From Verrucomicrobiota bacterium (GTDB lineage Bacteria; Verrucomicrobiota; Verrucomicrobiia; Palsa-1439): DNA of 64,000 nt. Position 1 is the stretch's first letter, and every line of letters begins with the position of its first letter. The translations under genes and the position numbers were made by a program. This document shows positions 12,175 to 46,563 of the stretch, one piece after another. The notes beneath the pieces are model-generated. The model worked only from the letters and a program-made list of their open reading frames with translations. It had not been told where the DNA came from and did not search any database. The stretch is from the NCBI GenBank assembly GCA_003152315.1, contig PLZV01000030.1, forward strand, positions 124,001 through 188,000, written 5' to 3'.

Positions 12175-13122
12175 CTATTCCTCCAGTGAATCCTCCTGGT
12201 CTTTCACCCACGCCGCGTAATCTTTCTCACTGTCGACCGTGAGATAACCCCGCATGCGATAGTGGCTCAGGCCACAAAGTTGGGCGCAGGCAATCTCCGC
12301 CGGGTAGTGCGGCCCGATGCGGACTGAGGTGATGCCACTGGTCACCAATTTCGCTGCCGTCTCTTTGCTGATGAGGTGTCCCTTTTTCACCAGGACCGTG
12401 CCATCGGCAGCCTTGTAGTCTTCCATCGAGACGTAAGGGTCGAGGTCCTTCGTGGCGGGAAGTGTGAGGGTAAATGCAAGCTCCTCGCGCATCTCATTGG
12501 AAGTCTTGGTCGGAATGAAGTGAATGGGAATCAACATACCCGGAACAGCATCCTGCTTTACGCGCATGACGGGCAGGAAAAAGCTGTGAATCACGTCCTT
12601 GGTGGTGATCTCGATGACCGCGGGCCGGTTCACGGGAAGGTGAAGCTGGTTCAGGGTCACGATGTCGTCCTTCGCGTGCGGATCACCTTTGCGATCGAGA
12701 CCTATCGGATTCGACTCTTCATTGACCAACTTGATGTCGGTGCGACCAAAAATGCCGTCGGGACCGGGATAGTGAATGTTCCACGCGAACTGCTGGGCGA
12801 TCACCCGCACGTGTACTGCGTTCGGTTCGGTCGGAAAGGCGCTGACTTTCCACGACCAGAATGGAATCGAGATGCCGACCAATAGGACGACTTCAATCGC
12901 GGCGATGGCCACCTCCAGGTACGAAGAGGCGTGCGTCTTGACGCCGGTGTAATCCGCCCTCGGGTTGCGGCCCTTGCGGAAGCGAAAGAGCGTATAGAGG
13001 AAAAACGTAATCCATCCCACGAACAGCACGACCATCAGGATGTGCACGTACAAAATCAGCCTGTCCATCTGCGCCCCCCGTTCGGAGGCGTTGATCGGTA
13101 ATCCTAGAAGCTTCTGCAACAT
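12175..13122 (-). CDS. coxB: Cytochrome c oxidase subunit II with an insertion in the CuA domain
   Basis: 315 residues. Two membrane helices precede the cupredoxin domain. The CuA ligands are DVIHSFF and CAQLCGLSHYRM (C-x3-C-x3-H-x2-M). Between them, where most subunits II have about 35 residues, there is a longer stretch including DGTVLVKKGHLISKETAAKL, followed by GITSVRI. That looks like a small inserted hairpin domain. No fused cytochrome c domain is present. The electron donor could be the plastocyanin-like protein at 16489 or a haem domain of the octahaem protein. Confidence 0.95.
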   Translation of the reverse strand: MLQKLLGLPINASERGAQMDRLILYVHILMVVLFVGWITFFLYTLFRFRKGRNPRADYTGVKTHASSYLEVAIAAIEVVLLVGISIPFWSWKVSAFPTEPNAVHVRVIAQQFAWNIHYPGPDGIFGRTDIKLVNEESNPIGLDRKGDPHAKDDIVTLNQLHLPVNRPAVIEITTKDVIHSFFLPVMRVKQDAVPGMLIPIHFIPTKTSNEMREELAFTLTLPATKDLDPYVSMEDYKAADGTVLVKKGHLISKETAAKLVTSGITSVRIGPHYPAEIACAQLCGLSHYRMRGYLTVDSEKDYAAWVKDQEDSLEE

Positions 13123-13147
13123 GGTTCAGTCCTTTTCGCTTGAATCG

Positions 13148-13399
13148 TTAGGGCGTCAGTTCCGCACTGTAACGGCGCGCCCGCCGCGCGAAACAAAAAA
13201 ACAAGCCCCCAAAGCTGCCCAGCACCACACCCGTGACACCCAGCATCGTGAAAATGCCGAAATTCATGCCGCGCGTCTGCGCCGCTCCCGGCGCGCCGTA
13301 ACAAACGGCACACGCCAGCAATAGTCGTGGTGTCAAACCCATCATGGCAACCAACACAAACACCATCAGCTTCCTGGCACGGTGAAAGATGCTCATCAC
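13148..13399 (-). CDS. Small membrane protein of the oxidase operon
   Basis: 83 residues with a signal-like N-terminus (KLMVFVLVAMMGLTPRLLLA) directly followed by CAVCYG, then one membrane helix and a basic tail. The CAVCYG motif behind a signal peptide could bind a metal or form a disulphide outside. Its position between the subunit IV region and coxB suggests an oxidase assembly or accessory role. I do not know a named family. Confidence 0.7.
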   Translation of the reverse strand: MMSIFHRARKLMVFVLVAMMGLTPRLLLACAVCYGAPGAAQTRGMNFGIFTMLGVTGVVLGSFGGLFFCFARRARRYSAELTP

Positions 13400-13400
13400 T

Positions 13401-13601
13401 TTATTTCTTCTCCTTCAAATTCCTGAGAAACATGATCTCGTACAACACCAGCAACACGCCGAAGCCAAATGCGCCGTATCCAGTAATCGCATAACCCACG
13501 TGTCCCTTCGCGAAATCCGAGTTGAGGCACCAACCACCAAACACAAGGCACAGCAAAATGGCCATCGTGACAAAGATAATATGGAACGTTTTCAGTGACA
13601 T
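13401..13601 (-). CDS. Small two-helix membrane protein of the oxidase operon
   Basis: 66 residues with two predicted membrane helices (FHIIFVTMAILLCLVFGGW and YGAFGFGVLLVLYEIMFLR) and a charged KEKK end. It lies two bases after the subunit IV gene. Probably a small oxidase-associated subunit. The function is inferred from position. Confidence 0.68.
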   Translation of the reverse strand: MSLKTFHIIFVTMAILLCLVFGGWCLNSDFAKGHVGYAITGYGAFGFGVLLVLYEIMFLRNLKEKK

Positions 13602-13603
13602 GT

Positions 13604-13960
13604 CTACTCCGCGGGATGCGCCGGCACGTGTCCTTGCGGCACGGCGAAAATCCCCTGTTGTCGACCCTGCTGGTCCTGCCGGGTAAACATAATCAGCCCC
13701 ATCATTACCACCACAAACACCGCGGTGAGCACGAGCACCCAGTAGATTATTTTTCGCTCGGCGGACAGGTGCATGAAGAAACCGGCCACCAGCGAGCCCT
13801 TGACCGTGGCGATGACCAACGCCACGATAATGCCGAGGACGATGCCCAGGTGAATGTTGGAGGCCAATACCGTGACCAGAGTGCCGACCGCCAGCGCGAC
13901 GAAGACCTTGATGTAGGTCTTCACATGACTCTGAACGTCTTCGTGATGCGTATCACTCAT
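13604..13960 (-). CDS. Cytochrome c oxidase subunit IV (caa3/CoxD-type)
   Basis: 118 residues with a His-rich start (MSDTHHEDVQSH), three membrane helices and the conserved KGSLVAGFFMHL stretch of bacterial oxidase subunit IV. It follows subunit III. The family supports assembly or stability of the oxidase. Confidence 0.88.
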   Translation of the reverse strand: MSDTHHEDVQSHVKTYIKVFVALAVGTLVTVLASNIHLGIVLGIIVALVIATVKGSLVAGFFMHLSAERKIIYWVLVLTAVFVVVMMGLIMFTRQDQQGRQQGIFAVPQGHVPAHPAE

Positions 13961-13976
13961 GGTGTCCCAATCTAGG

Positions 13977-14591
13977 TCATTTGCCCGGCAAAAGATAGAG
14001 TGTTGGAAACAGGAAAATCCACACGAGATCGACGAAGTGCCAGTACAAACCGGCGACTTCGATGCGATTGGTGAAGCGTTCGGGGTCGGTCTGCCACATC
14101 TTGGCGCCGGGTCCCCAGAGGTAGGTGTTGACGATCATGCCGCCGATGACGTGCAACCCGTGCAGCCCGGTCATCGTAAAGTAAATCGCCATGAATGTGC
14201 TGGTCGACGGCCATATCCCATTCTCGAATTTATGCGCGTATTCAAAACCCTTGATTACCAGGAAGATTACGCCGCACAGGATCGTCACTCCCATGTACGA
14301 TTTATACTTACCAAAGTTTTTCGTCTTCAACGAAGCCCAACTCATGACCATCGTCACACTGGAGATGATCAACACCAGCGTGTTGATCGTGGCCAAAGGG
14401 ATACTCAGGCCGATTTGGGCTCCGTTTTCCCAGGTGTCCGCGCCGGTGCGCAGCAGCACATAGGTGGAAAACAGCGCGCCGAACAGCATCACTTCCGAGG
14501 CGAGAAAGAGCCACACGCCCAGCTTGGCGTTGTACAGGCCGGTATCCGGTCGCTCGGTCGAGTTATAAGGAATCTCAATGGCAGTAGACAT
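13977..14591 (-). CDS. coxC: Cytochrome c oxidase subunit III
   Basis: 204 residues with five membrane helices, the length of bacterial five-helix subunits III. Conserved features are [26 protein letters not shown] and the terminal [18 protein letters not shown]. It starts immediately after the coxA stop, with no gap. Confidence 0.96.
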
Positions 14592-16394
14592 CTATTTCTT
14601 TCCTCGGTTGTTCGGGTCGCCTGGCTTCTTGTCGGGTTCGTTCTGGGGAAGAAAATCTTTCTCCGCACCGGGCACGCTGTACTCGTAAGGTCCGCGAAAC
14701 ACTTCCGGAACCTTGAGGAAATTCCCGTGTGGCGGCGGAGTCGGGGTGGCCCATTCGAGGGTCGTGGCCTCCCACGGATTGTCGCTGGTCACCTTTCGTC
14801 CAGCGAAAAGGCTCCAGAAGAAGTTCACGATGAAAATGCACTGAATAACCGCCAGGCCCCACGCGGAGTGCGACATAACCTTGTTCAGATAAAGGACGTT
14901 TTGGGCGTGGAGATAGGAAGTGCCGCCGTCGTACAGACGACGCGACACACCCGCCATGCCCACAATAAACATCGGCATGAAGATGCCGTTCATGAAGATG
15001 AGTGAGCCCCAGAAATGGAGCTTGCCGAGGAAGTCGTTCATCTGTTTGCCACTGACCTTCGGGAACCAGTAATAGATGCCCGCGAAGAGCGCGAAGAGTG
15101 TCCCCGGCGCGACGACGTAGTGGAAATGGCCGATGACGTAATAGGTGTCGTGTAAATGAATGTCAGCGCTCGCCAGGCCGAGCGGCAAGCCCGTCAGGCC
15201 GCCAATGCCGAACATCGGTAGAAATGCGAGGGCGAACAACATCGGCACGTTGAACCGTATGGAACCGCCCCACAGCGAGAGGATCAGCGCCGTCAGGATG
15301 ATAATCGACGGGATCGAGATGATCATCGTGGTGGTCTGGAAGAATGCGTTGATGGCCGTGCCCATGCCCGTCAGGAACATGTGATGGGCCCAGACGACGA
15401 ACGACATGAACCCGAGGAATATCACCGAATAAACCAGGGACTTGTATCCCCACAGTGGTTTGCGAGTGTTGTTGGCGATGACCTCGGCCACAATCCCCAT
15501 CGCGGGCAATATCAACACGTACACTTCGGGATGCGCGAGAAACCAGAAGAGATGCTGCCAGAGCAACGCGCTGCCGCCGCCGCTTACGTTTAGCGCCTTG
15601 CCACCGACCACCAGGCCGGTGGGCAGGAAAAAGCTCGTGCCCGCCATGCGATCCATCAGTTGCATCACGCCCGCGGCTTCCAAGGGCGGGAACGCCAGCA
15701 AGAGCAGGAAGCCCGTGACCAACTGCGCCCATACGAAAAATGGCAGCCGCATCCATGTCAGTCCCTTCGCCCGCAACTGGATGATGGTGGTGATCGTGTT
15801 GACCGAACCCAGGAGCGATGAGGTGATCAGGAACACCATGCCCGTCAGCCACAGGGACTGGCCCGTGAATAGCGAATGGCTCTGGGGAGTGATGACTGAA
15901 AGCGGCGGATACGAAGTCCAGCCGGACTGCGCCGAGCCGCCGGACACAAAGAAACTGCCGAGCATGACCACGCCGCCGATAAAGTACACCCAGTAGCTGG
16001 ACATGTTGAGCTTGGGGAACGCCATGTCCTGCGCACCGACTTGCAGCGGTACCAGATAATTCCCGAACGCACCCACCGCCAGCGGCACCACGCCGAGAAA
16101 GACCATGATCGTGCCGTGCATCGCGCCGAGCTGGTTGTAAAACTCCGGCGCCATCACCCCGCCGGGCATGCGCGATTCCCCGAGCAAGTTCGTCAGGAAG
16201 GCAATCGGCAGCGGCTTGCCGGGATAGGCCAACTGCCAGCGCATTAACAGCATCAGGCAAAAGCCGAAGAATAAAAATACCAGCGCGGTCAGTCCGTACT
16301 GGATACCGATGATCTTATGGTCCGTCGAGAAAATATAGTGCCGCCAAAACGGCAACTCATCGTGATGCTCTTCGTGATGATGCGCTTCTCTCAT
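14592..16394 (-). CDS. coxA: Cytochrome c oxidase subunit I
   Basis: 600 residues with about twelve membrane helices. The haem a3-CuB region is complete: HPEVYVLILP (with the cross-linking Tyr and the E of A1-type oxidases), HHMFLTGMG, and YYVIGHFHYVVAPG carrying axial histidines. The C-terminal tail is charged (NEPDKKPGDPNNRGKK). It is the catalytic core reducing O2 to water and pumping protons. It heads the cox genes, 94 bases after the copper protein gene. Confidence 0.98.
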   Translation of the reverse strand: MREAHHHEEHHDELPFWRHYIFSTDHKIIGIQYGLTALVFLFFGFCLMLLMRWQLAYPGKPLPIAFLTNLLGESRMPGGVMAPEFYNQLGAMHGTIMVFLGVVPLAVGAFGNYLVPLQVGAQDMAFPKLNMSSYWVYFIGGVVMLGSFFVSGGSAQSGWTSYPPLSVITPQSHSLFTGQSLWLTGMVFLITSSLLGSVNTITTIIQLRAKGLTWMRLPFFVWAQLVTGFLLLLAFPPLEAAGVMQLMDRMAGTSFFLPTGLVVGGKALNVSGGGSALLWQHLFWFLAHPEVYVLILPAMGIVAEVIANNTRKPLWGYKSLVYSVIFLGFMSFVVWAHHMFLTGMGTAINAFFQTTTMIISIPSIIILTALILSLWGGSIRFNVPMLFALAFLPMFGIGGLTGLPLGLASADIHLHDTYYVIGHFHYVVAPGTLFALFAGIYYWFPKVSGKQMNDFLGKLHFWGSLIFMNGIFMPMFIVGMAGVSRRLYDGGTSYLHAQNVLYLNKVMSHSAWGLAVIQCIFIVNFFWSLFAGRKVTSDNPWEATTLEWATPTPPPHGNFLKVPEVFRGPYEYSVPGAEKDFLPQNEPDKKPGDPNNRGKK

Positions 16395-16488: not shown

Positions 16489-17208
16489 TTATTCGGCAGG
16501 CTTTGAAAACTTGAAGTCGAGGGTCTTGGCTTCGCCGTCACCGACTTTGATCTTTTGGACCTGCTCGCCATACTTCTCATGCCAGGCAGCCACTTGGTAT
16601 TCGCCGGCAGGCAGTCCCTTCAGCGAGAACGCGCCGTCATCGCCGCTCACACTGTAGAAAGGGTTGGTCATCACACCGACGTACGCCGACATCCATGGAT
16701 GCACATCGCATTTGAAGTGCACCATGATCTCGGGCTCGGCAAAGGTGCGGACAGTCTTCATGTCCTTGTTGGGCTGGCCGACATTGAATTCCTTGCTCTT
16801 CGCCGGCATGGCGTGAATGTTGTGCAGGGTGTCATCGCTGTTGATAATTTCCAGCGGCTGTTTCACCATCATCCCGAACACGTGCGGTACGTAATGGCAG
16901 CCGGTCTGGGTGAGCTCGACCGGGGTCTTCGGCGTGTCATAGGTCTTCCCCTCCAGGCCGCTCTTCACGTACACGAAGACATTCTTCAAGGTGCCGTCGG
17001 CGTTCACCACCACTTCTTCGTTGAGTAGTGGCGAATCCGCGTGCATCTCCGCGCACTTGGGATCCGCATCCGTCGGGATCTTCTTTTGCTTTGGAGGTTT
17101 GCCGTCAAACGTAATCTTGCCGGAAACTGACGCGGAATCCGCGGCGTGTGAAACCGTGGTGACGAGAACCGATACGACAACTACCATCAACAACTTCGAT
17201 AATTTCAT
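16489..17208 (-). CDS. Exported plastocyanin-like copper protein
   Basis: 239 residues, good ribosome site AAGGAGAG before ATG 17208, and a signal peptide cut after VSHAA. A first beta region (SGKITFDGKPP) resembles a carboxypeptidase-regulatory/cupredoxin fold. The type 1 copper ligands appear as LHNIHAMP (His) and FKCDVHPWM (Cys, His and Met). A C-terminal Gly-Leu-Pro-Ala-Gly region (GLPAGEYQVAAWH) is a CarboxypepD_reg-like domain. It lies between the bc-type complex and the oxidase and is the obvious candidate for a periplasmic carrier between them. Confidence 0.82.
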   Translation of the reverse strand: MKLSKLLMVVVVSVLVTTVSHAADSASVSGKITFDGKPPKQKKIPTDADPKCAEMHADSPLLNEEVVVNADGTLKNVFVYVKSGLEGKTYDTPKTPVELTQTGCHYVPHVFGMMVKQPLEIINSDDTLHNIHAMPAKSKEFNVGQPNKDMKTVRTFAEPEIMVHFKCDVHPWMSAYVGVMTNPFYSVSGDDGAFSLKGLPAGEYQVAAWHEKYGEQVQKIKVGDGEAKTLDFKFSKPAE

Positions 17209-17328: not shown

Positions 17329-20300
17329 TTAGGGTTGCGCTTGCGGCTGCGTCGGCGCCGCCACCGGCGCGGGTGCCGGCACTACTTCCGCGACTTGCTC
17401 ATGCGTGCCCAATGTTAGCACGTAATCCACCAGCGCCTCGATTTGTTTGCGTCCATCGCCACCGAGGATGTTCGGCGCGATAGCCGTGCCATATTCGAAC
17501 TGCGGCATACGCGTCCCCGGCTGCTGCGCCAACGGCTCCACGAGCCATTTGTTTACCAACCAGTCGCGTTGCAGACGCAGGTGCGCCTGTGAAAGATTGG
17601 GCGCCAATCGCGGCAGATCCTCCTCGGGAATCTCCGCAAGCGGTTTGCCCAGCGCCTTGCCATCGACGATGTGGCACAACGCGCACTTTAATTGTTCGAA
17701 CAACTGCTTGCCAGCAGCCAGGTGCTCCGGCGTCATATCAATCTTCGGCGACTGATACGGAAATTGTGCTTCACCCTGCAGCGCGAAGTACTTCACGAGC
17801 ACGTTGGCCTCGCCATCCGTCAATCCAAAGGTCGGCATGCGGACGTGCAGCCACGGGCGAATCTGGCCGGTTTGCGGCGCCTTGATGAATTGGAACAACC
17901 AATCGGGCTGGGTGCGCTGCCCTTGATGCAATTGCGTCGGGGTGCCACTCAACAGCGGCGGCTCCATCCCCGTCGCGATGCCGGTCGCGCGAACGGCGCC
18001 GCCCTGCGCTTCCACGATGTGACAGCCGATGCAATTCAATTCCTTCACCGTCCAGCGACCGCGCTCGATCTGGAATTCCGCGGGTGTCAATTGCCGCGCT
18101 TCGTTCGGCGTCAGCTTCTCATCGGTCATGCCCGAGACGACAGTGACGATCTGATCGATCTGCTCGTCAGTCAGGTTGAATTTCCCCATCCTCAGCAACT
18201 CCTGCGGCATGCGCGTGACATCGATCCGCCCTCTGTCAAACGAGCGCGGGGCATGGAGTTTCTGCTTCAACCAGGAGAGGCGACCCTTCTCAATGTCCAC
18301 CAGGCCGAAATCCAGTTTATCGACCGGCTTGCTGCCCCACTCGCTCAATTCGGTGCCGATGGGCTTGGCGGTTTCAAACCCATGGATGTCGTGGCAGGCG
18401 TAGCAGCCGTACCGAAAAATCAGCTTACTACCCAGGTAAACGTTCTTCTTGTCGGTGAACTGCATGCCGGCAACCGTCTGCTTCGCCGCCTGTATCTTAA
18501 CTTTTACCTGCTCGATCTGCGCGGCCAGCTTCTTCGCCTTACGGTCCACGGCATCGTCGAACGTTTCCTCAAATTCCTTCTGCAAAGCCTTAAGCTGGGT
18601 TTCTTCCCGGGCGAGCCGCGCGGGGTCCTGATAGTACTTCATGGTCTCTTCATCGACAAAATACAGCTCAATGAGGTCGTCGAGGTTGTTGATTTTCTTC
18701 CGCGCTTCTTCCATCGGCAAGGTCACCTGGAGGTACTCGATCGTCTCCTTGTCGAGGAGTTCTCCTTTCGCTTCAGGTAGAGTTTCCTGGTCGGTCTTCT
18801 CGTTGTGAAGACCGGCGAGATACGTGGCGACATCCGCCGCTTCCTGATCGCCCAGGCGCAAGTTCGGCATCTTCGTCCTCGGATGATACTGCTTCGGGTC
18901 TTTGAGCCAGGCGTAAAGCCAGTTGCCCCCTGCCTTGCTGCCCACACCGGCCAATTGCGGCCCTTGCGAACGCAACCGCCGGTATTGCCAGTCGTCCATG
19001 TATTGCTTGAGCGACGCCGGCACCTTGACGTCCATCAGCTTCTCATCGATGACGTGGCAGCCCATGCAACCGAGTTGACCGACGAGCTTCTTGCCGTTTT
19101 CGGCGTCGCCCTGGACCGGCGGCACGGGATACTTCGGCTGATCGCTCACGGCGAAAAGGTATTCCGCGATCGCGTTGATTTCGACGGCATTGCGGTCTGG
19201 CGTGCCCGCGTTATTGTCGAGTCCCCAGAAACGTGGCATGTAGGTGTTCGGGCGGAAGGCAACCGGATTGTCGAGCCACTTGCGCATCCACTCTTTGTTC
19301 GTCTTGCTGGCCACCTTGTAAAGGCTCGGACCCGGCTTGCGCAGCGTGCGGATCGGGATGTTCACTTCCTGGCCAATCGTCAGCGAAACTTCCTGCGGGA
19401 AACCATTCAGCCGGCGCACGTCGTCGGCATTCACGTCGTAAAACTTGCAGAGACCTTCGAAATCCTCACCTGCGGCGACGTGGTGCGTCGTGTAGGTCTC
19501 CATTTGTTTCATCTTATGGCACGACCAACAGCCCAACTGCTCGATGAGGCGGCGACCGTGGTCCAGTTTCTCGCCACCTTTCAAATTGGTCTGGGCATTG
19601 TGGCATTTCAGGCAACTGGCCTGCACATACTTGGCCGAACGCATCGGCTGCATGAGGAATTCTTCCTCTTCCCAGTTGTGGTTCTTCTGCCACACTTCCT
19701 TCTGGGTCATTTCGACGACATTGGTTTTCGACACCACCACCTTTTGCGCCTTCGTATCGTCATCCTCGTCATCTTCACTCTTCGGGGCTTTCACCCACTG
19801 CTTCGTCGAGGCGTCCAAGATGTATGGTTGCTTCTCTTCAGCTTCCGGTGTATGGCCGGAGCGCGAAAACGTTGTTTCGCGGTCCCAACCCCAATGGCAA
19901 ACGGTGCAGCCGTAGGTGGTGGCCGGATGCGGCGAGGTGTCGCCGACGAATAAATCCATTTGCGGATGGTTGCGTAGCGGCTGTGGCTGTCTGGACCACT
20001 CAATGACCTCGATCTTGTGTTTGGCGCGCCAGTCGCGGTCTTCGGGTGTCGGGTCCTTACGGTCGATGCCCTTGTGGCACATGATGCAACGATCCACGCG
20101 CGGGACAGTCGCGAAGTTCACATCGGTGTGATGTTTGTCGGCGATGATCTGCTCGACCTTGATAGTCCCTGCGGCGAATTCGATGACCGGTGCGTTGACG
20201 ACGCCCTGGACCAATGAGCTGTCGAGTTGCTTGTAGCGGGTGGTCAAGAGTTTGATGCCGTCGTCAAGGCGCTTGATGTTGTGCTGCAATTCCACTTCGT

Positions 20301-20895
20301 GACCCATAAGCACGGTCTGATTGTCCTTGGTCGCCTGGAGTTTGGCATCGGCTTGCTGTTTAAGAAGATCGAGTTTCGACACGAAGTCATTTTGTTTCTC
20401 GGCCTTGTTCTTCGACTCACGCACTTCGGGTACGTCCGTATTCATGTTGTCGCGCTCGAGAGCCTCTTCGTACAACGACCGGTCTTGGTCGCGCATGGCC
20501 TTTTCCATGGTGAACTGGCGCGTAATCAGGTCGTCTTCCACCCGCGCTTGATCCACAGCGGCCTGCAATTTCGTTTCCTCGGCCTTCTTCCCCGACAACT
20601 CCCCGTTTGTCTTTTCCAAGTCGTCCTGCATCCTGGCCAGACCGGCCTCGTTCGCCTTGACCTCGGCGGCTTTGGCATCGTCCGCCAGACGTTTCATATC
20701 GAGCGTGTAAAACTGGTGCTGGTAGTTCTTCCACTCACGGTCACCGTGCAAGGCGAGCCAGGGGGCATAGCCGCCGGAATAATCGACCCAAATCATCAGC
20801 ACGAGGCTTAAAAGGAAGACAAAACCGCTGAGCAGGAACCACCAGTGCAGGCGCGGGATGTTGTACTCGTGGAGGGTCTCGGGTTGGTTTCTCAT
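17329..20895 (-). CDS. Octahaem cytochrome c with coiled coil and LysM domain (bc complex subunit)
   Basis: 1188 residues. One N-terminal membrane helix (~18-38), then a long charged coiled coil (~65-230). Eight CxxCH motifs follow: CIMCH, CTVCH, CLKCH, CWSCH, CMGCH, CYACH, CIGCH and CALCH. Between the fourth and fifth haem lies a LysM-like segment (THHVAAGEDFEGLCKFYDVN, ending with a NIPIR strand), a peptidoglycan-binding fold. A second helical region (~720-810) separates the fifth and sixth haems. The C-terminus is Pro/Ala-rich. It follows cytochrome b with four bases between, so it replaces cytochrome c1 in this menaquinol-oxidising complex. Several haem domains resemble monohaem cytochrome c modules. 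Confidence 0.9.
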   Translation of the reverse strand: MRNQPETLHEYNIPRLHWWFLLSGFVFLLSLVLMIWVDYSGGYAPWLALHGDREWKNYQHQFYTLDMKRLADDAKAAEVKANEAGLARMQDDLEKTNGELSGKKAEETKLQAAVDQARVEDDLITRQFTMEKAMRDQDRSLYEEALERDNMNTDVPEVRESKNKAEKQNDFVSKLDLLKQQADAKLQATKDNQTVLMGHEVELQHNIKRLDDGIKLLTTRYKQLDSSLVQGVVNAPVIEFAAGTIKVEQIIADKHHTDVNFATVPRVDRCIMCHKGIDRKDPTPEDRDWRAKHKIEVIEWSRQPQPLRNHPQMDLFVGDTSPHPATTYGCTVCHWGWDRETTFSRSGHTPEAEEKQPYILDASTKQWVKAPKSEDDEDDDTKAQKVVVSKTNVVEMTQKEVWQKNHNWEEEEFLMQPMRSAKYVQASCLKCHNAQTNLKGGEKLDHGRRLIEQLGCWSCHKMKQMETYTTHHVAAGEDFEGLCKFYDVNADDVRRLNGFPQEVSLTIGQEVNIPIRTLRKPGPSLYKVASKTNKEWMRKWLDNPVAFRPNTYMPRFWGLDNNAGTPDRNAVEINAIAEYLFAVSDQPKYPVPPVQGDAENGKKLVGQLGCMGCHVIDEKLMDVKVPASLKQYMDDWQYRRLRSQGPQLAGVGSKAGGNWLYAWLKDPKQYHPRTKMPNLRLGDQEAADVATYLAGLHNEKTDQETLPEAKGELLDKETIEYLQVTLPMEEARKKINNLDDLIELYFVDEETMKYYQDPARLAREETQLKALQKEFEETFDDAVDRKAKKLAAQIEQVKVKIQAAKQTVAGMQFTDKKNVYLGSKLIFRYGCYACHDIHGFETAKPIGTELSEWGSKPVDKLDFGLVDIEKGRLSWLKQKLHAPRSFDRGRIDVTRMPQELLRMGKFNLTDEQIDQIVTVVSGMTDEKLTPNEARQLTPAEFQIERGRWTVKELNCIGCHIVEAQGGAVRATGIATGMEPPLLSGTPTQLHQGQRTQPDWLFQFIKAPQTGQIRPWLHVRMPTFGLTDGEANVLVKYFALQGEAQFPYQSPKIDMTPEHLAAGKQLFEQLKCALCHIVDGKALGKPLAEIPEEDLPRLAPNLSQAHLRLQRDWLVNKWLVEPLAQQPGTRMPQFEYGTAIAPNILGGDGRKQIEALVDYVLTLGTHEQVAEVVPAPAPVAAPTQPQAQP

Positions 20896-20899
20896 TGCC

Positions 20900-22114
20900 T
20901 CAGAACTTGATCCACGGGGTGTCCACGAAGTATTTCAGGGTCATCGTCCAGCGCAGCACCATCTTCAGCGGCAACGTGAACATGGTAAGGAACAACATCA
21001 CCAACACGCTGTAGCGGGCCAAATCCAATTGTTCGTAAAACTTCTTCAAAATCGTCTTGGCGAGGATGCCCGGCAGGGCGAGGAAGTAAAAGGCCAGAAA
21101 CAGGATGCCGGCGAATTCGCGTTTGATGGCGTGACCGACTTCCACGAGGAACAGGCGGATCGATGTGGGATCCGGCGGAAGCAATTGTGGGATCGCGTTG
21201 CGAACCTGCGGCAGCCCCTGGTTAAACCACTCGATGTGCGTCTTTTGGTAAATCCACTGGAACCATTTCACCCACACGTAATCAGAAAGGTTCACGTTGT
21301 TCAGCGCGACGATCTTGTGCGGATCCCAGTACTCGAACGGCCCGAAGAAATTCCAGCCCGGCCCCCGCAGGAAGGTGCCGGTGATAATCATAAACACCCA
21401 GAGCGCCAGGTAGCCGAACAAGAAGATCCCAATCGAGAATTTCCGCTCGGCGAACGTGAAGTAACCGCCGCCTTTCGGGTTGGTGTCGATGTACGGAATT
21501 GCCATCAGCCCGACGACGATGATGCTTGGCAGCACCACGCCCGCGTACCACGGATCGTAGTACACGAGCATTTCCTGCAGCCCGAGGAAGTACCACGGCG
21601 CTTTCGACGGATTGGGCGTGGCAGCGGGATTGGCGGGCTGCTCGAGCGGCGCGCGCAGGTAAATCGCCCAAAGGATCAATACGATGGAGCAGATGATCAG
21701 CGCAATGAACTCAATGTACAGCAGGTCGGGCCAGACCCAGGTCTTTTGGTTGGAAGTCTCCTTTTCATCCGGCGGCAACTTCTGTTCCACGCGACGGTCG
21801 TTGTTCACGGCCTGCGTCATCGCCAGCCAGAGCACAAAGGTGGAGATGAACAACATCGCGGTGATCGGCACGTTGTCCGGCTTGCCGACGATGAGGGAGA
21901 AATTCGGGTCCTTCATTCCCCAGATAATAACGCCACTCTCGATCGCAATGGCCAGGATGCCGATCCACCAGTTGAAAACGTAACGGCGGAAGCGCAGCAT
22001 GAGCAACAGCCCAATCGTGGTGAGTGAAAAGCTCAGCCACGGGGTGGCCAGGATATTGGCCACCTCCTTGAACGCCTCGAATAATACACCATGACCTGCC
22101 GCTGCGTGTTCCAT
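20900..22114 (-). CDS. Cytochrome b C-terminal subunit (subunit IV-like) of the bc complex
   Basis: 404 residues with about eight membrane helices. The region SKAPWYFLGLQEMLVYYDPW is the Qo-site signature of split menaquinol cytochrome b (the PWYF form of PEWY). It carries extra helices at both ends compared with cyanobacterial subunit IV (~160 residues). It works with the haem-bearing N-terminal half at 22139-22918. Confidence 0.92.
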   Translation of the reverse strand: MEHAAAGHGVLFEAFKEVANILATPWLSFSLTTIGLLLMLRFRRYVFNWWIGILAIAIESGVIIWGMKDPNFSLIVGKPDNVPITAMLFISTFVLWLAMTQAVNNDRRVEQKLPPDEKETSNQKTWVWPDLLYIEFIALIICSIVLILWAIYLRAPLEQPANPAATPNPSKAPWYFLGLQEMLVYYDPWYAGVVLPSIIVVGLMAIPYIDTNPKGGGYFTFAERKFSIGIFLFGYLALWVFMIITGTFLRGPGWNFFGPFEYWDPHKIVALNNVNLSDYVWVKWFQWIYQKTHIEWFNQGLPQVRNAIPQLLPPDPTSIRLFLVEVGHAIKREFAGILFLAFYFLALPGILAKTILKKFYEQLDLARYSVLVMLFLTMFTLPLKMVLRWTMTLKYFVDTPWIKF

Positions 22115-22138: not shown

Positions 22139-22918
22139 CTAGAGCGGCCCGGAGATGCCGCCGTCTTTGCGGATACGCCAAAAATGCACCGCCATCAACA
22201 CCGCCGCGATGAGCGGAATGCCGACACAGTGCAACACGTAAAATCGCAACAACGTGGTGCCGCCAAGTTCCTTGGCGCCAATCAGCATGAACCGCGCGTC
22301 ATCGCCCGGATGCACCAGCGGCACGCCGCCAATCTGCAAAAAGTCCGCGAAGGGCCCACCCGCGCCCATCAGCGGCGTGGCCTTCGCCATGTTCGAACCA
22401 ACGGTGATCGCCCAGATCGCGAGCTGATCCCAGGGCAGCAAATAGCCCGTGAATGAAAGCAGGAATGTGAGGACGAGCAAAATCACGCCAATCGCCCAGT
22501 TGAACTCACGGGGTGGCTTGTAACTGCCCGTCATGAACACGCGGAACATATGCACCATCACCATGATGACCATGGCGTGGGCGCTCCAGCGGTGCAGTTC
22601 CCGCATAATGCCGAACGGGACTTGCGAGCGGATGTCGAGCATGTCCACGTACGCGCCTTCCACGGTGGGACGGTAATAAAACATCAGGAGCACGCCTGTC
22701 AGCGTGAGGACCAGGAAGAGGAAGAAACTCAGGCCGCCGGCACACCACGTGTAACGCAATTTCACACCGCTCGTGCGCACTTTCGTGGGGTGCAAGTGCA
22801 AGAACACGTTACCCAGGACGATGAGCACGCGTTTGCGGTCGGTATTCGGAATGCCGACGCGAAAGATCGATTTCTTGATCTGCGAATCCAGGACCGTGTT
22901 TTTGAGTTTGTTCAGCAT
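22139..22918 (-). CDS. Cytochrome b N-terminal subunit (b6-like)
   Basis: 259 residues with four membrane helices. The haem b ligands are in the pairs ELHRWSAHAMVIMVMVHMFR and the later LHCVGIPLIAAVLMAVHFWR. A Qo-side helix is around GYLLPWDQLAIWA. It forms a split cytochrome b with the next gene, as in menaquinol bc complexes. It starts six bases after the Rieske gene. Confidence 0.95.
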   Translation of the reverse strand: MLNKLKNTVLDSQIKKSIFRVGIPNTDRKRVLIVLGNVFLHLHPTKVRTSGVKLRYTWCAGGLSFFLFLVLTLTGVLLMFYYRPTVEGAYVDMLDIRSQVPFGIMRELHRWSAHAMVIMVMVHMFRVFMTGSYKPPREFNWAIGVILLVLTFLLSFTGYLLPWDQLAIWAITVGSNMAKATPLMGAGGPFADFLQIGGVPLVHPGDDARFMLIGAKELGGTTLLRFYVLHCVGIPLIAAVLMAVHFWRIRKDGGISGPL

Positions 22919-22924
22919 GGCTCT

Positions 22925-23527
22925 TTACACCGCAACGAAGGCGCGCGGATCGTCGAATTCACCCTTTTCCCAGAAGAACAGCCGCCCCTCGTTGACGACA
23001 ATCTGCCCGTCATCTGCCAGGGTGACCTCATAACGCCGCATTGGGAACGGCGCCGGGCCTTCAAAATTGATGCCATCGATGGTGTAGCCACTGCCGTGAC
23101 ACGGACACTTGAACTTGCGTTCGCCGTCCATCCAGTTCGGCGTGCAACCGAGGTGCGTGCACACGGACTGGATCGCAAAGATGCGGCTGTCGTGGTTCAC
23201 GACCCACATGCGATGGGCCGCCTTGAACGATTCGTCAACCGTGTTGGGCGCAAAATTGGTCGGCGGGCCGACTTTGAAGACGTCGACCCGGGTGAAATCG
23301 ACACGCGGCACCATGAACGCAAAGAGCGCGGTCAACCCGCCCCCGAGCGCAGCAGCGAAGGTCGCCCACGCGAGCGCGAGGCTCACCAGGAATTGTCGAC
23401 GCGGCATGGGTTGGCCGGCGGGATCAAGAAACCCCTTGGCCTTCAACCGCCGCACCGCTTCTTCACGCGGACTCAACGGCTGCCCCAGTTGGGGTTTGTC
23501 CGCTCCTACAAATTTCAGCTCAGCCAT
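22925..23527 (-). CDS. Rieske iron-sulphur protein
   Basis: 200 residues. The [2Fe-2S] motifs are CTHLGC and CPCHGSGY. The N-terminus has a twin-Arg-like PRRQFLVSLALAWATF followed by a membrane anchor, so export is probably by Tat. It oxidises menaquinol at the Qo site and passes the electron to the octahaem subunit. Confidence 0.96.
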   Translation of the reverse strand: MAELKFVGADKPQLGQPLSPREEAVRRLKAKGFLDPAGQPMPRRQFLVSLALAWATFAAALGGGLTALFAFMVPRVDFTRVDVFKVGPPTNFAPNTVDESFKAAHRMWVVNHDSRIFAIQSVCTHLGCTPNWMDGERKFKCPCHGSGYTIDGINFEGPAPFPMRRYEVTLADDGQIVVNEGRLFFWEKGEFDDPRAFVAV

Positions 23528-23529: not shown

Positions 23530-24501
23530 TTATTTGTGTCTCAAACTATTAAGTTGCTGAATCGCCGCGTTGCGCACCCGCAAATCCGCTTCGCCGGTGC
23601 TCATTCTTACCAGCAGCGGGGTGGCCTTCGACGGATCCAATTTCGCCACCCACATCACCGCCGCCACCCGGTACCGCTGGATGTTCTCTGCCAACGGGCG
23701 ACCCTCCTTCGGCATCAACTGAGTAACACGGTCAACGTATTCCTTGTCAAGCAACCTCGCCAACACATCCCACGCGACTGCGTTTCCCTTGCTCGCCAGC
23801 CCGAAGGCCGCATTCCACTTCACCAGCTCATCCGGGTCATTGAGCGACGCTTCCAACACACCGCGCGCCGCCGGACTATCCATCGACCCGAGCACATACA
23901 CCGCCATCAGGCGCACCGATTGTTCGTCGCCGTGAGTCAACTCGATGATCCGCCGGGCGGAGGCTTCATCGTCAAGCCGGCCCAATGCCCACAGGCAATT
24001 CTTCACCGTCTCGGCGTCACCGTCATCGAGCCCCTCGCGTAACGACGCGATAGCCTGGCGATCTCCCAACAAGCCAAGCACCAACGCCAGATACCGCCTT
24101 GTCTTCGGGTCCTGACCTTTCGACTCTTCAAAGACCTGGACGATGTCCGTGACGGCGTGCGGGTTTTTTGCGAGAAACTGTTCACGGTCCGCACTGATCT
24201 GGGCTGTGACATCGAAAATTCCCTGCCAGCGCTTCGAGTCCTGGATGTAATTCAACAGATACTGTGCCTGCCGGGTGCGTTGTTCGCCCGAACTGGCACG
24301 TAACGCACCCAGGTAATCATCCAGCCCCTTGCGCTCGGCCGTCAGCCACATGAACAGCCCCGCCAGGGCCACGCAGAACAACACGACCGCCAGCGGGATC
24401 ACAAACAGTTGTACCGCCAGCGTCGCGAACGTCGATTTCTCTGCCGACGGTTCCGCCACGCCTGGTGAAGGCGCTTCCCCTGACTGCTTTGCGTCACTCA
24501 T
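23530..24501 (-). CDS. Membrane-anchored HEAT-repeat protein of the bc operon
   Basis: 323 residues. A membrane helix (~30-55) is followed by HEAT/PBS-type repeats, e.g. NCLWALGRLDDEASARRIIE, MAVYVLGSMDSPAARGVLEA and VKWNAAFGLASKG. These repeats build scaffolds for protein contacts. It sits two bases from the Rieske gene, so a structural or assembly role in the complex is likely. Confidence 0.82.
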   Translation of the reverse strand: MSDAKQSGEAPSPGVAEPSAEKSTFATLAVQLFVIPLAVVLFCVALAGLFMWLTAERKGLDDYLGALRASSGEQRTRQAQYLLNYIQDSKRWQGIFDVTAQISADREQFLAKNPHAVTDIVQVFEESKGQDPKTRRYLALVLGLLGDRQAIASLREGLDDGDAETVKNCLWALGRLDDEASARRIIELTHGDEQSVRLMAVYVLGSMDSPAARGVLEASLNDPDELVKWNAAFGLASKGNAVAWDVLARLLDKEYVDRVTQLMPKEGRPLAENIQRYRVAAVMWVAKLDPSKATPLLVRMSTGEADLRVRNAAIQQLNSLRHK

Positions 24502-24510: not shown

Positions 24511-24975
24511 CTAGTGCTTCTCCAACTGAGACGGCAACATCGCCGCCCGATGGGTCGGAGCATTCGGCACGATAATGGCATCCTTGTCACAGACGATCTC
24601 GCACAGCCGGCACGCCACGCATTCCTCTGCCACGACTTCGGCCACTTTGTAGTGGACCGCGCCCGTGAGCGTGGGGTCTTCAATCATATGGATGCAATCG
24701 AACGGGCAGATGTCCACGCAGAACTCGCAGCCGGTACAGTCGTCCACGATGACCTTCGCCTTCGGGATCTGGCTCGGTTTGATGCGCGTGACGAGGTTAC
24801 CGTACTGGTCCTGGATGCATGAGACCGGGCAATAGATGGCGCACACCCCGCAATCGATGCAGCCTTCGGGGTGGATGATGTACAGCTCCTTGGACTTGCC
24901 GCTGATTGTGTCCACGGGACACTTCAGTTCGCAGACGGTGCAGCCAATACAAGTGTCTGTAATGAAATACGCCAT
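24511..24975 (-). CDS. Ferredoxin with four [4Fe-4S] motifs
   Basis: 154 residues with four CxxCxxCxxxC sites: CIGCTVCELKCP, CIDCGVCAIYCP, CTGCEFCVDICP and CVACRLCEIVCD. No signal peptide, so cytoplasmic. It is the first gene of the leftward respiratory block. A cytoplasmic ferredoxin in a bc operon is unusual. It might link the complex or its regulation to cytoplasmic donors, but this is not shown by the sequence. Confidence 0.88.
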   Translation of the reverse strand: MAYFITDTCIGCTVCELKCPVDTISGKSKELYIIHPEGCIDCGVCAIYCPVSCIQDQYGNLVTRIKPSQIPKAKVIVDDCTGCEFCVDICPFDCIHMIEDPTLTGAVHYKVAEVVAEECVACRLCEIVCDKDAIIVPNAPTHRAAMLPSQLEKH

Positions 24976-25674: not shown

Positions 25675-27099
25675 TCACGAGCGACTGATCATCTGTTGCA
25701 AGTTGCCGCGCGCGTTAAAAACTTCCACAACCATCGGCATCTGGCCGATGGCGTGTGTGGAGCAACTCAGGCAGGGGTCATAGGCGCGGATGGCGGCTTC
25801 GATGCGGTTAAGAATGCCTTCCTTCACTGGTTCGCCGTGGATGTACATCTTGGCGACTTCCTCGACGGCGCGGCTCATGGCGTAGTTGTTGTTGCCAGTG
25901 GCAACGATGAGGTTGACCTTTTCGAGCCGGCCGGTTTCGTCCACCCAATAATGATGCCAGAGCGTACCGCGCGGTGCCTCGATAACGCCGACGCCTTCGC
26001 GCCTGGCGGGCCAAGCGTTGGTGCGGATCTCCGTGGAGAGGATGTCGGGGTCTTCGAGCAGTTGACGAGCACGTTCGATGGCGTACAGGTTCTCGATCAA
26101 CCGGGCGTAATGGTAATACAGCGAACCTTCGACAACTTTGCCTTTGCGCAGGCCATGGAACAGGTCAAATTCCTTTTGCGCCAGCGGTGTGGACATTCTC
26201 TCGGCGGCATTAAGGCGACCAAGCGGGCCGACGCGGTAGGCGCCGCCGGGCCAGCCGAGTTTGCGGTAGTACGGAAACTTGAGGTAGCTCCAGTTCTCGA
26301 CATGCTCGGCAATACGCTCAAGATACTGGCGGCCATCGAAACATTCGATCAGATGTCGCTGCGCATCCACCATCCGCAAGGCGCCGTCGTAAAGGGCAAC
26401 GGCGTTGTCGTCGGTGACCATGCTGAGGTAGCCGGTGGGGAACGCGGCGAAAGTTTCCATTTCCTCTGCGTGCTTCTCCATCCAGGCTTTCATCACAGCG
26501 ATGCCATCCTGGGCAAGAGCGATCATCAGTTCCACCTGTGATAACATCGCGTCGCGGTCGGCGGCGGCAAGCGCCTTGGTGACGCCGCCGGGGACGGCGA
26601 AATTGGGATGAACGCGGCGTTCCCCAAGTTTGGCGATGATTTCCTGTCCGAATTTCCGCAGCGTGATCGCTTTGACGGTGAGTTTCGGGTCGGCTTGGTA
26701 GAGGCCGACAACATTGCGGATGGACGGATCGGCGTCGAACCCCAAAATCAAATCGGGACCGGCCAGTTCGAAGAAGTGCATCGAATGCGATTGGATCGTC
26801 TGGCCCATGTGCATCAGTTCGCGCAGCAATCGCGCGGGCCGCGGCGGTTCGACGCCGAGAATTTCGTCACCCGCCTTGGCCGAGGCGAGATGGTGGCTGA
26901 CCGGGCAAATGCCGCAGATTCGTTCGGTGATCAGCGGCATCTCGTAAAACATCCGACCTTCACAGAATTTCTCGAAGCCGCGGAATTCGTTGACGTGAAA
27001 CCGCGCCTGCTCAACATTGCCCGCGTCGTCAAGGTGGATGGTGACTTTCGCGTGACCTTCGATGCGGGTTACCGGTTCGATTGTGATGGTGTTTGCCAT
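25675..27099 (-). CDS. hoxH: [NiFe] hydrogenase large subunit, HoxH/group 3 type
   Basis: 474 residues. The nickel-binding motifs are RICGICPVSHH near the N-terminus and DPCLSCSTHAIGQ near the C-terminus. About 22 residues follow the last His, so the usual protease-cleaved C-terminal extension is present. No Tat signal, as expected for a cytoplasmic enzyme. The motif details match bidirectional NAD(P)-linked hydrogenases. It is the last gene of the operon, 7 bases after the small subunit. No maturation protease gene is in the window. Confidence 0.95.
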   Translation of the reverse strand: MANTITIEPVTRIEGHAKVTIHLDDAGNVEQARFHVNEFRGFEKFCEGRMFYEMPLITERICGICPVSHHLASAKAGDEILGVEPPRPARLLRELMHMGQTIQSHSMHFFELAGPDLILGFDADPSIRNVVGLYQADPKLTVKAITLRKFGQEIIAKLGERRVHPNFAVPGGVTKALAAADRDAMLSQVELMIALAQDGIAVMKAWMEKHAEEMETFAAFPTGYLSMVTDDNAVALYDGALRMVDAQRHLIECFDGRQYLERIAEHVENWSYLKFPYYRKLGWPGGAYRVGPLGRLNAAERMSTPLAQKEFDLFHGLRKGKVVEGSLYYHYARLIENLYAIERARQLLEDPDILSTEIRTNAWPARREGVGVIEAPRGTLWHHYWVDETGRLEKVNLIVATGNNNYAMSRAVEEVAKMYIHGEPVKEGILNRIEAAIRAYDPCLSCSTHAIGQMPMVVEVFNARGNLQQMISRS

Positions 27100-27106
27100 G
27101 GCCGTG

Positions 27107-27649
27107 TCAATGCCAGTCGAGATTCTTGCCGGTCAACGCCGGTGTGCGGCCAGCCGCCAATTCGGTGAGCACGAAGAAAATCGCGTCAGCCGACGGCGGG
27201 CAGCCGGGGAGATACACGTCCACCGGGACCACCTGGTCGAGTGCCCGCGCGTCCTGCATGACGGCGAGTTCAGGGTCGTTCGGAACGCGGCCTTCAGCGG
27301 TGCTTTCGGTTTCAATGTAGGCGCGCCGCAACGCTTCGCGGCAGGAGACCCCGTTGCGCAGCGTCGGCACGCCGCCGAACACCGCGCAATCGCCGAGGGC
27401 CACGAGCACTTTGCAGCGGGCGCGCATCTGCTTGGCGACGTGTTCTCCGGCGGAGTTATTGACGCAGCCTTCAAGGATGCCGACGTCTACGCCGCTTTCG
27501 GGCGGATGTTTTAAGTCGGTGATCGGCGTTGCGTGCAGCGAGACCTGCTCCAGGAGCGTGACGATCCGTTCGTCGATATCCAGCAACGACATGTGGCAAC
27601 CGGCACAGCCGGCGAGCCAATCGCTTGCGACAGTGGGCTTGTTCGGCAT
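27107..27649 (-). CDS. hoxY: [NiFe] hydrogenase small subunit, HoxY type
   Basis: 180 residues from ATG 27649. A longer open frame is a shadow of the upstream gene. Proximal [4Fe-4S] ligands appear as WLAGCAGCHMS, ILEGCVNN, ALGDCAVFGG and YLPGCPPSAD. It lacks the C-terminal extra clusters and the Tat signal of uptake enzymes, as usual for group 3. It passes electrons from the NiFe site to the diaphorase subunits. Confidence 0.94.
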   Translation of the reverse strand: MPNKPTVASDWLAGCAGCHMSLLDIDERIVTLLEQVSLHATPITDLKHPPESGVDVGILEGCVNNSAGEHVAKQMRARCKVLVALGDCAVFGGVPTLRNGVSCREALRRAYIETESTAEGRVPNDPELAVMQDARALDQVVPVDVYLPGCPPSADAIFFVLTELAAGRTPALTGKNLDWH

Positions 27650-27663
27650 CGTCAATCCTTTCG

Positions 27664-29502
27664 TTACTCCGGTCCCGCGAGGTGCACGAGCGCTTCGGGC
27701 GACAACGTCTGCCCCATTCGTTCCGCTAGTTTCACGAACGTCTGCCTGTGGTACGGCACCGATGCCGGCGCCTGCAACAACGGCACGACCGGCAACCGCC
27801 GGCCTTCGAGATTGACCACGTGGCCCCGTTGCTCGGCCCAAGTGGGCGAGGGCAGCACTACGTCCGCCGCATCGGTCCACACGGAACGGACGGCGGCGTG
27901 GACGACGGTGAACTCGCTTTGCGGCAACGGTTGGCCATCGCTCAGGTCATCGCCCAGCAATACGTACAACGCGTCGCCGCGCACCGGCCGCGGCTCGATG
28001 CCGAGCCGGGCCGCACCGACGGCGTTGGCGCCTTTGACCAACGGCAGGAACCGCGCTTGCGCCGGCAGGGTCCGCAGTGCCGCATAGACGCTGCTGCTGA
28101 GGCCGGAGCCGTAGAGCAACACCGGCCGCTGTGCGGATACGATGGCTTTCTCCAATTCGAACACGCCACTGACACGCAAATGGTAAGTGGTCTTCAACCG
28201 CTCGAACGGCGACGCGGCGCGGAACGAGATGTCTTCGAGTTCGAGTTGCAGTTCGGCCCAGTCATCGATGCCGGTGGTCTCGTCATTGACAATGATCAAC
28301 CGCGCCTCGTTGTCGAGCGCCCGCCGGACCAGATGACCGAGCACCTTTTGGTTTTGAAGCGGGTTGCCGCCGATGACCGCGATGCAGTCCGCATTGGCCA
28401 CGTCACGCAACGAGGCCATCAGGCCGAGGTCGAGCGGCGGGACTTCGCCCGACAACAACGCGATTTCACTGCTCTCCAGCACGTCGTGGAAAAAACACTC
28501 GAAGGCCGCCAGCGACTCAGACGTGAGCCGGGGCGATGCGACACCGGCGACAAGGTGCGCTTCGCTGAATCTCGTTCCGATCAACGCCAGCGCGTCGTCC
28601 CAACTCGTTTCCACAAGTTGGCCGTCGCGGCGGACCAGCGGCTGGAGGATTCTGGCCGGTTTCGGTTCGACAACTTCGAACCTGCCGGCCGAGCAGAGCA
28701 GCCCGCCGTTGGGAGCGTCCCAATCGCCTTCGACGCGCAGCAGATGATTGTCGCGCGTGATCGCGTGGATGCCGCAACCCACCGCGCAACCGACGCAAGT
28801 GGCGGGCGTGCGTTTGATCTGCGATTCGTGACCGAGATAAACGCTTTGGCGATCGTGCAACGCGCCGGTCGGGCAGACTTGCAGGCAGGTGCCGCACGAG
28901 ACGCAGCTAGATTCACCGAACGGCACGTCGTCGTCAGCGCTGATCATCGTCCGGGCACCGCGCTGGTTGAGGCCGAGCGTGTGGTTGGCGGCGATGTCCT
29001 CGCAGGCGCGAATACAACGACGGCACAGAATGCAGCGGCCATGGTCCATCACGAAAAATTCCCGCGAAGCATCGACCGGCCACTGTTTCTTGTAATTCGG
29101 CGCGTACGTCCAGCAATCGAGGCCGTGCTCGTAGCCGAGTTGCTGCAATTCGCAGTCGGTCGTCTCGCCGGTGCCGCTGGCAGGGCAGAACATGCAGTAA
29201 TGTGTCCGTTCCGAAAAGATCATCTGCAGCGACGCCTTCCGCGAGGCGATGATGGCGGGCGTATCGGTGCGCACGACCATTCCTTCGGCGACGGGGAACG
29301 TGCACGACGGCTGGAGCGAGCGTTGTTTTTCAATCTCGACAAGACAAATGCGGCAGGCGCCCTCCGGTTTGAGTTGCGGGTGATGGCAGAGCACCGGAAT
29401 GTGGATACCGGCTGCGGCCGCGGCTTCATAGACGGTCTGCCTGGCCCTGGCTTGCACGGGTCGGCCGTTAATTGTGATATTGATGGGAGCGGGCTCGTTC
29501 AT
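27664..29502 (-). CDS. Hydrogenase diaphorase subunit, NuoG-like (HoxU plus partial molybdopterin-type domain)
   Basis: 612 residues from ATG 29502. Order: [2Fe-2S] ferredoxin domain (VLCHHPQLKPEGACRICLVE), His/Cys cluster (THYCMFCPASG), two [4Fe-4S] sites (CILCRRCIRACE, CVSCGTCLQVCP), then CVGCAVGCG opening a NuoG-like molybdopterin-family domain that ends near residue 612, shorter than full NuoG. It carries electrons between HoxY and the flavin subunit. Its start overlaps the preceding gene by four bases. Confidence 0.88.
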   Translation of the reverse strand: MNEPAPINITINGRPVQARARQTVYEAAAAAGIHIPVLCHHPQLKPEGACRICLVEIEKQRSLQPSCTFPVAEGMVVRTDTPAIIASRKASLQMIFSERTHYCMFCPASGTGETTDCELQQLGYEHGLDCWTYAPNYKKQWPVDASREFFVMDHGRCILCRRCIRACEDIAANHTLGLNQRGARTMISADDDVPFGESSCVSCGTCLQVCPTGALHDRQSVYLGHESQIKRTPATCVGCAVGCGIHAITRDNHLLRVEGDWDAPNGGLLCSAGRFEVVEPKPARILQPLVRRDGQLVETSWDDALALIGTRFSEAHLVAGVASPRLTSESLAAFECFFHDVLESSEIALLSGEVPPLDLGLMASLRDVANADCIAVIGGNPLQNQKVLGHLVRRALDNEARLIIVNDETTGIDDWAELQLELEDISFRAASPFERLKTTYHLRVSGVFELEKAIVSAQRPVLLYGSGLSSSVYAALRTLPAQARFLPLVKGANAVGAARLGIEPRPVRGDALYVLLGDDLSDGQPLPQSEFTVVHAAVRSVWTDAADVVLPSPTWAEQRGHVVNLEGRRLPVVPLLQAPASVPYHRQTFVKLAERMGQTLSPEALVHLAGPE

Positions 29503-32762: not shown

Positions 32763-32775
32763 CGCGTCGTCCTTG

Positions 32776-33279
32776 TTAGTCGAGTGCCTTGACACGCTGA
32801 ATGAGCGTGTCGGAGTTGAGCCGTCCGTAAACCTTTTCATTCACCAGTGCGACCGGCGAGATGCCGCACGAACCGAGGCAATAGACAACTTCTAGCGTGA
32901 GTTTGTAGTCGGGCGAAGTTTCGCCGGCGGCGACGCCGGTGGCGTGCTGGAGCGCGTCGAGGTTTCTCCCCGAACCACGCACGTGGCAGGCGGTGCCGTC
33001 GCAGATGCGAACGAGGTTGCGCCCGCGTTGTTTCAGATGGAACTGCGCATAGAACGTCGCGACACCGTAGATGCGGTTCAGTGGGATGCGTGTTTGTTTC
33101 GAGATGAATGCAAGCGCCGGGCGCGGCAGGTAGCCGTAAAGGTCCTGAGTGCGCTGGAGGATCGGGATGAGGGCCCCTTTCTGGCCCTTAAACTGTTCCA
33201 GAATGCGGGTGAGGCGGCTGAAGTCAACCGGCGGCTCTTTGGTCGCGGTTGATTGGCCGTGCTGGATGCTGGTGGCCAT
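32776..33279 (-). CDS. NuoE/HoxE-like [2Fe-2S] subunit
   Basis: 167 residues. The thioredoxin-like [2Fe-2S] ligands are CDGTACHVRG and YCLGSCGISP. The N-terminal helical region (LIPILQRTQDLYGYLP) is typical of NuoE. It lies 13 bases before the NuoF-GltD gene and forms the flavin module with it. Confidence 0.94.
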   Translation of the reverse strand: MATSIQHGQSTATKEPPVDFSRLTRILEQFKGQKGALIPILQRTQDLYGYLPRPALAFISKQTRIPLNRIYGVATFYAQFHLKQRGRNLVRICDGTACHVRGSGRNLDALQHATGVAAGETSPDYKLTLEVVYCLGSCGISPVALVNEKVYGRLNSDTLIQRVKALD

Positions 33280-42623: not shown

Positions 42624-42629
42624 CGTCCC

Positions 42630-43076: not shown

Positions 43077-43079
43077 GCG

Positions 43080-46560: not shown

Positions 46561-46563
46561 GCG

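Follow-up and report, generated by a model that had tools for sequence, protein, structure and literature searches.

A multihaem cytochrome with a LysM domain inserted in its haem-4 domain as the putative cytochrome c1/f counterpart of a Rieske/cytochrome b complex in Verrucomicrobiota

Rieske/cytochrome b complexes with a hexa- or octahaem cytochrome in the place of cytochrome f have been described in anammox bacteria, and those of Kuenenia stuttgartiensis combine such a cytochrome with a b6-like cytochrome b and a subunit IV (PMC12954380). In the published model, long helices of Kustd1485 enclose the complex and its Rieske protein, reaching halfway around the complex, an extra haem b site was modelled in cytochrome b, and the low-potential electron was proposed to go to NAD(P) (PMC12954380). 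Two PDB entries from that work, 9rk3 (Kustd1480) and 9rk4 (Kuste4569), allow a direct comparison of Rieske proteins (PMC12954380).

We analyzed a window of 64,000 nucleotides from a Verrucomicrobiota bacterium, whose minus strand carries an operon comparable to these complexes. The features considered below are listed with their window coordinates, and residue numbers in the nine lines from the octahaem subunit to the anchor refer to the octahaem protein.

12175-16394, minus strand: aa3-type oxidase genes coxI, coxIII, coxIV and coxII (open reading frames, Pfam, gene order), with the CuA motif CAQLCGLSHYRM recognized by eye
16489-17208, minus strand: exported blue-copper-like protein, ligands His129, Cys167, His170 and Met173 invariant in eight homologues
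17329-20895, minus strand: octahaem cytochrome c subunit, 1188 aa, eight CXXCH motifs (Pfam Cytochrom_C, E=3e-35)
17401-18450, minus strand: haems 6-8, residues 816-1165, invariant Met903, Met1020 and Met1130 (alignment)
18454-18621, minus strand: second coiled coil, residues 759-814 (COILS-type score, AF2), in the window's own family only
18796-19110, minus strand: haem-5 domain, residues 596-700, invariant Met676 (Pfam and alignment)
19111-19560, minus strand: haem-4 cytochrome c domain, CXXCH-456 plus invariant Met553, interrupted by LysM (homologue alignment)
19351-19497, minus strand: LysM domain within the haem-4 domain, residues 467-515 (alignment, profile, AF2, overlay)
19561-20130, minus strand: haems 1-3, residues 256-445, with invariant His310, His323, His348 and Met418 as candidate distal ligands
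20221-20736, minus strand: long helical region, residues 54-225 (AF2 helices, COILS-type score), also present in LysM-less homologues
20785-20841, minus strand: N-terminal membrane anchor, residues 19-37 (hydropathy; AF2 helix 13-40)
20900-22114, minus strand: subunit IV-like protein, 404 aa, about eight hydrophobic segments, APWY replacing PEWY (Cytochrom_B_C E=2e-5, hydropathy)
22139-22918, minus strand: cytochrome b6-type subunit, Cys59 at the haem cN position, invariant His41/His43 (Pfam, NCBIfam, alignment)
22925-23527, minus strand: Rieske iron-sulphur subunit, nearest PDB entry Kustd1480, 9rk3 (Pfam, PDB sequence search)
23530-24501, minus strand: membrane-anchored HEAT-repeat protein of the operon (Pfam, hydropathy, gene order)
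24511-24975, minus strand: polyferredoxin with four Fer4 stretches, operon head, conserved in relatives (Pfam, gene order)

The ATG of the octahaem gene lies four bases beyond the stop codon of the subunit IV gene ahead of it. A preliminary description of this DNA had proposed a single 1188-residue protein with a membrane anchor and eight haem sites, standing where cytochrome c1 would be, and each of these points was borne out. Its coordinates, length and strand for the reading frame are exact; hydropathy finds one hydrophobic stretch, which AF2 models as helix; the CXXCH motifs lie at residues 270, 330, 428, 456, 610, 831, 955 and 1071, while 5000 shuffles of the protein's composition never gave more than one; and the gene occupies the cytochrome c1/f position of a Rieske/cytochrome b operon. 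Across 11 aligned full-length homologues all eight motifs are invariant, as are one methionine behind each of CXXCH 4-8 (Met553, Met676, Met903, Met1020, Met1130) and the three histidines and Met418 among haems 1-3. On this pattern, we read the protein as a three-haem part ahead of five His/Met cytochrome c domains; haems 1-3 are probably mostly bis-His, with ligands partly assigned from the alignment. No Pfam match to the cytochrome f or cytochrome c1 families was seen at E values up to 10.

Several other identities for the protein were considered and set aside. An NCBIfam match to SoxX reflects generic cytochrome c similarity spread across three stretches; the AF2 model of the whole protein is of poor quality (mean pLDDT 59, pTM 0.40), and its Foldseek matches to SH3BP5 and similar proteins reflect the long helices only; matches of a whole-family profile to TolA were rejected as composition arising from the anchor and the charged helix. 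A fusion of genes that are split in other genomes was likewise rejected, since the gene is whole at every complete locus and is interrupted in G008 and G044 by contig ends only.

The operon reads ferredoxin, HEAT protein, Rieske, b6, subunit IV and octahaem cytochrome, followed by the copper protein and cox genes, and its core order is kept in relatives as far as their contigs extend, with some exceptions. The Rieske protein matches Kustd1480 (9rk3) at E=4e-42, as against 3e-20 for a b6f Rieske protein and 2.8e-17 for Kuste4569 (9rk4). Like the Kustd1480-1485 complex, the window's complex has a very similar Rieske, a b6-like cytochrome b, a subunit IV with apparent extra helices, and an anchored multihaem cytochrome with long helices in the place of cytochrome f. 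This match of composition, together with the closeness of the Rieske proteins, makes Kustd1480-1485 the closest known relative, and we consider it about 75% probable that the octahaem protein stands in for cytochrome c1/f in a b6-type Rieske/cytochrome b complex of that kind. The Rieske match, the operon content and the published description suggest by analogy that it is akin to Kustd1485 in particular. Some differences temper this comparison. Hydropathy gives about eight hydrophobic segments in the window's subunit IV, whereas the Kuenenia protein has five helices; the Kustd1480-1485 complex includes an NAD(P) oxidoreductase subunit and no reported LysM; and polyferredoxin, HEAT protein, copper protein and aa3 oxidase genes adjoin in the window, unlike in Kuenenia. 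Because the window's operon has no NAD(P) subunit, we describe the complex as working like Kustd1480-1485 and do not file it as a full member; in G567 and G691 an NAD(P) oxidoreductase gene lies beside the octahaem gene, recalling Kuenenia.

Other known systems resemble the locus less closely. Kuste4569-4574 shares the general layout with a multihaem cytochrome but differs in its much less similar Rieske protein and its HAO-like octahaem partner. Cytochrome b6f/b6c complexes share the split cytochrome b, the haem cN cysteine and the Rieske protein, whereas the window's complex has eight haems and extra subunits and no cytochrome f. The cytochrome b also matches ExtP of the NCBIfam selenite/tellurite operon set (264 bits, cut-off 290), and subunit IV and the octahaem cytochrome match ExtQ and ExtS weakly, but all of these fall below their cut-offs and the operon differs. 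Within cytochrome b, the haem-b histidines are invariant and Cys59 is present in 12 of 13 homologues; the exception, in G529 (L058:10501-11304), has Leu at that position. The subunit IV-like protein carries its extra hydrophobic segments at both ends, with APWY where PEWY is usual, and the HEAT-repeat protein is kept in the operon across two classes.

Electron flow through such a complex can be proposed from its family. Quinol would be oxidized at the cytochrome b/subunit IV pair, with one electron entering the Rieske cluster and moving from it to the octahaem subunit, which its membrane helix and long helices would brace against the b/Rieske core, as in the published Kuenenia model. Haems 1-3 and the His/Met domains of haems 4-8 would then hand the electron to the exported blue-copper protein and from there to CuA of the aa3 oxidase, an order of components that follows the gene order. 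With the conserved blue-copper protein and the aa3 oxidase encoded next door, relay to the oxidase is the likely task of the octahaem protein, and the route from Rieske to copper protein to CuA is most likely. The copper protein has a type-1 set of His, Cys, His and Met ligands, invariant in all eight homologues, and among solved cupredoxins it is matched best by a blue copper protein (E=4e-5), with weak matches to amicyanins; judged from these ligands and from gene order, it is likely an electron carrier, in the way that plastocyanin serves after b6f. In G567 the copper protein gene lies at the operon head instead. The preliminary description had sent the haem chain either to the oxidase or to the outer membrane, and its first destination agrees with the copper protein and oxidase genes that adjoin here and in relatives. 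A wire spanning the periplasm to an outer-membrane acceptor would suit a long, membrane-anchored protein with eight haems, but the conserved neighbours are the copper protein and oxidase and no porin-cytochrome or other outer-membrane conduit was seen beside the octahaem gene, so this second destination appears very improbable.

The domain that sets this protein apart is the LysM. Against the whole octahaem protein, Pfam PF01476 stays under its cut-off (E=0.016, 15.5 bits), while against the segment alone it reaches 21.9 bits, over the cut-off of 20.9; the profile match spans 43 of 43 positions. All eight homologous segments are matched as well (best E=7.5e-9), and a profile built from the LysM segments retrieves solved LysM proteins from the PDB sequences (E=6e-19). 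Both AF2 models fold the segment as beta-alpha-alpha-beta (pLDDT mostly 73-89 in the segment model), and the modelled domain overlays 4uz3_C at 1.2 A across 46 columns with a TM-score of 0.86, although Foldseek E-values are modest (0.004 at best). By profile and fold, this is a genuine LysM domain, as the preliminary description had supposed in naming it LysM-like. It is not a spacer between haems 4 and 5: residues ~467-515 lie between CXXCH-456 and the conserved Met553, ahead of the GPSL...W...NTYMP part, and since the haem-4 CXXCH and this part of the same domain flank it, the LysM is an insertion inside a cytochrome c domain.

Among the homologues found, this insertion is confined to one lineage. 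Every protein of the window's class that covers the region, eight in number, carries it. Five homologues of another class (G423, G615, G529, G567 and G691) cleanly lack it; in these the CXXCH runs almost straight into GPSL while anchor, helices and eight haems are retained. When the tree was inferred with the LysM columns removed, a branch with support 1.000 separated carriers from non-carriers, so that a single gain or a single loss is enough, the direction not being fixed in a tree without an outgroup. The LysM evolves faster than the sequence on either side (24-29% identity against 43-50% for the whole haem-4 region, both to other families), its segments are acidic in six of seven cases (pI 4.5-5.7), and its invariant positions are few and mostly related to the fold (E2, V9, E13, N33, G44, P50 and R52). 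Literature searches found no relevant report of LysM with multihaem cytochromes or bc complexes; within that literature the insertion appears to be undescribed, and it appears to be the new part of a complex that is itself of a known kind.

The helical parts of the protein bear on what the LysM might do. The preliminary description had given the protein a coiled coil of ~165 residues, of which the long helical region at 54-225 stands. AF2 places helices at 54-83, 86-101, 104-148 and 156-225 (pLDDT mostly 60-83), and in the model the region is probably several helices folded back rather than one rod of 165 residues. Scores above 0.5 were obtained only at 86-118 and 201-230 of this region in the window's protein, and more widely in homologues, from a COILS re-implementation with an approximate matrix, whose scores are accordingly rough, with AF2 giving independent support. 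A second coiled coil at 759-814, between haems 5 and 6, was absent from the earlier list and is confined to the window's family. The long N-terminal helices are kept in the five homologues that lack LysM and are thus not there for the sake of the LysM. Given the published model, in which the Kuenenia helices wrap complex and Rieske protein alike (PMC12954380), they read as a brace rather than a wall spacer, most likely bracing the Rieske/cytochrome b complex by analogy, and the proposed part of the coiled coil in fixing the protein to the wall is not supported.

The role of the LysM itself can be read in two ways, and both start from its carriage in a loop of the haem-4 domain. It may bind the glycan strands of peptidoglycan, lightly tethering the complex and fixing the place of the haem chain between membrane and wall, a reading we hold only tentatively. 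The true LysM fold, shared in profile and structure with wall hydrolases such as P60_tth (4uz2/4uz3) and LytE, speaks for such binding, and a complex that is probably a dimer would bring two LysMs. P60_tth contacts chitin through backbone and small hydrophobic residues at Val21, Gly24, Leu27 and Leu52, which become Val, mostly Gly, Phe/Leu and Val/Ile/Leu in the octahaem LysMs, and the P60_tth paper notes that main-chain contacts may suffice. P60_tth has an affinity of about 90 uM for chitohexaose. The aromatic contacts of the same cleft, Tyr28 and Phe50, are however replaced by non-aromatic residues in every member (by hand alignment around a one-residue gap), leaving a mixed set of glycan-contact positions. 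A single copy per chain, its placement in a haem-domain loop rather than at a terminus, its acidity and its fast evolution also weigh against a wall tether. We lean slightly instead towards a scaffold insert without sugar binding, which would dock another subunit (the HEAT protein, the copper protein or the oxidase) or shield haem 4. The loss of the aromatic sugar contacts and the scarcity of invariant positions beyond the fold fit this second role, for which LysM1 of P60_tth, itself a protein-protein interface, offers a precedent; the hydrophobic cleft positions are retained, though, and any docking partner is hypothetical. The fuller proposal, in which a LysM within the complex's own electron-carrying cytochrome domain anchors it to peptidoglycan and so fixes quinol oxidation, haem relay and copper carrier at the wall, is doubtful. 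If the LysM does bind the wall, a bc-type complex would be linked to it via a cytochrome domain, to our knowledge the first such link.

A further proposal bears on the opposite side of the complex and would agree with either role of the LysM. The enzyme might bifurcate electrons between ferredoxin and oxidase, with the low-potential electron from quinol passing to the polyferredoxin at the cytoplasmic face rather than returning to quinone. The polyferredoxin is conserved at the operon head, a GltD-like NAD(P) oxidoreductase adjoins the octahaem gene in G567 and G691, and the invariant His41/His43 and Arg250-Lys251 of cytochrome b fit the additional haem b site of the Kuenenia model. Nevertheless, the evidence is purely positional, the ferredoxin may be an unrelated neighbour and the window's operon has no NAD(P) module of its own, so that bifurcation seems unlikely. 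Under the preferred reading as a Kustd1480-1485-like complex with relay to the oxidase, the gene content points to a Kuenenia-type complex in an apparently oxygen-respiring chain of Verrucomicrobiota, with an aa3 oxidase and a blue-copper protein beside it, and suggests that the haem relay is general and not bound to anammox chemistry.

The octahaem protein is sparsely distributed among the genomes searched. With the protein as query, it was found in nine of the class's 384 genomes and in five genomes from a single further class of the phylum, but not in G001, another genome of the same genus. A pattern scan that also extended to other phyla, and which reaches close relatives only, identified three named records with a homologue, all Verrucomicrobia metagenome-assembled genomes, and a searched plasmid collection held no relative.

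Additional redox genes were observed around these loci. In the LysM-less G567 and G691 loci (L059 and L076) the GltD-like genes lie directly beside the octahaem gene, and the G567 locus also holds a second Rieske/cytochrome b pair. The window's own genome, G000, has four Rieske/cytochrome b loci: the octahaem locus (C11), a second that pairs a hexahaem cytochrome with a GltD-like protein (C57, L077), and two more on C32 (L078) and C9 (L079), of which one lies amid NapC-like and nine-haem cytochromes and one has cytochrome b fused to a four-haem tail. The L077 complex, with its 491-aa hexahaem cytochrome by the GltD-like protein, may be nearer to Kuste4569-4574. In the window, NiFe hydrogenase-type genes at 25675-32840 (minus strand) include a NuoG/HoxU-like subunit and a NuoF-like subunit fused to a GltD-like domain, and were not seen beside the operon in relatives. 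A second redox cluster at 42126-49139 (plus strand), with monohaem cytochromes, a pentahaem c7/c3-type protein, a molybdopterin-type protein, a 4Fe-4S protein, NrfD and a four-haem cytochrome, resembles Qrc or alternative complex III modules.
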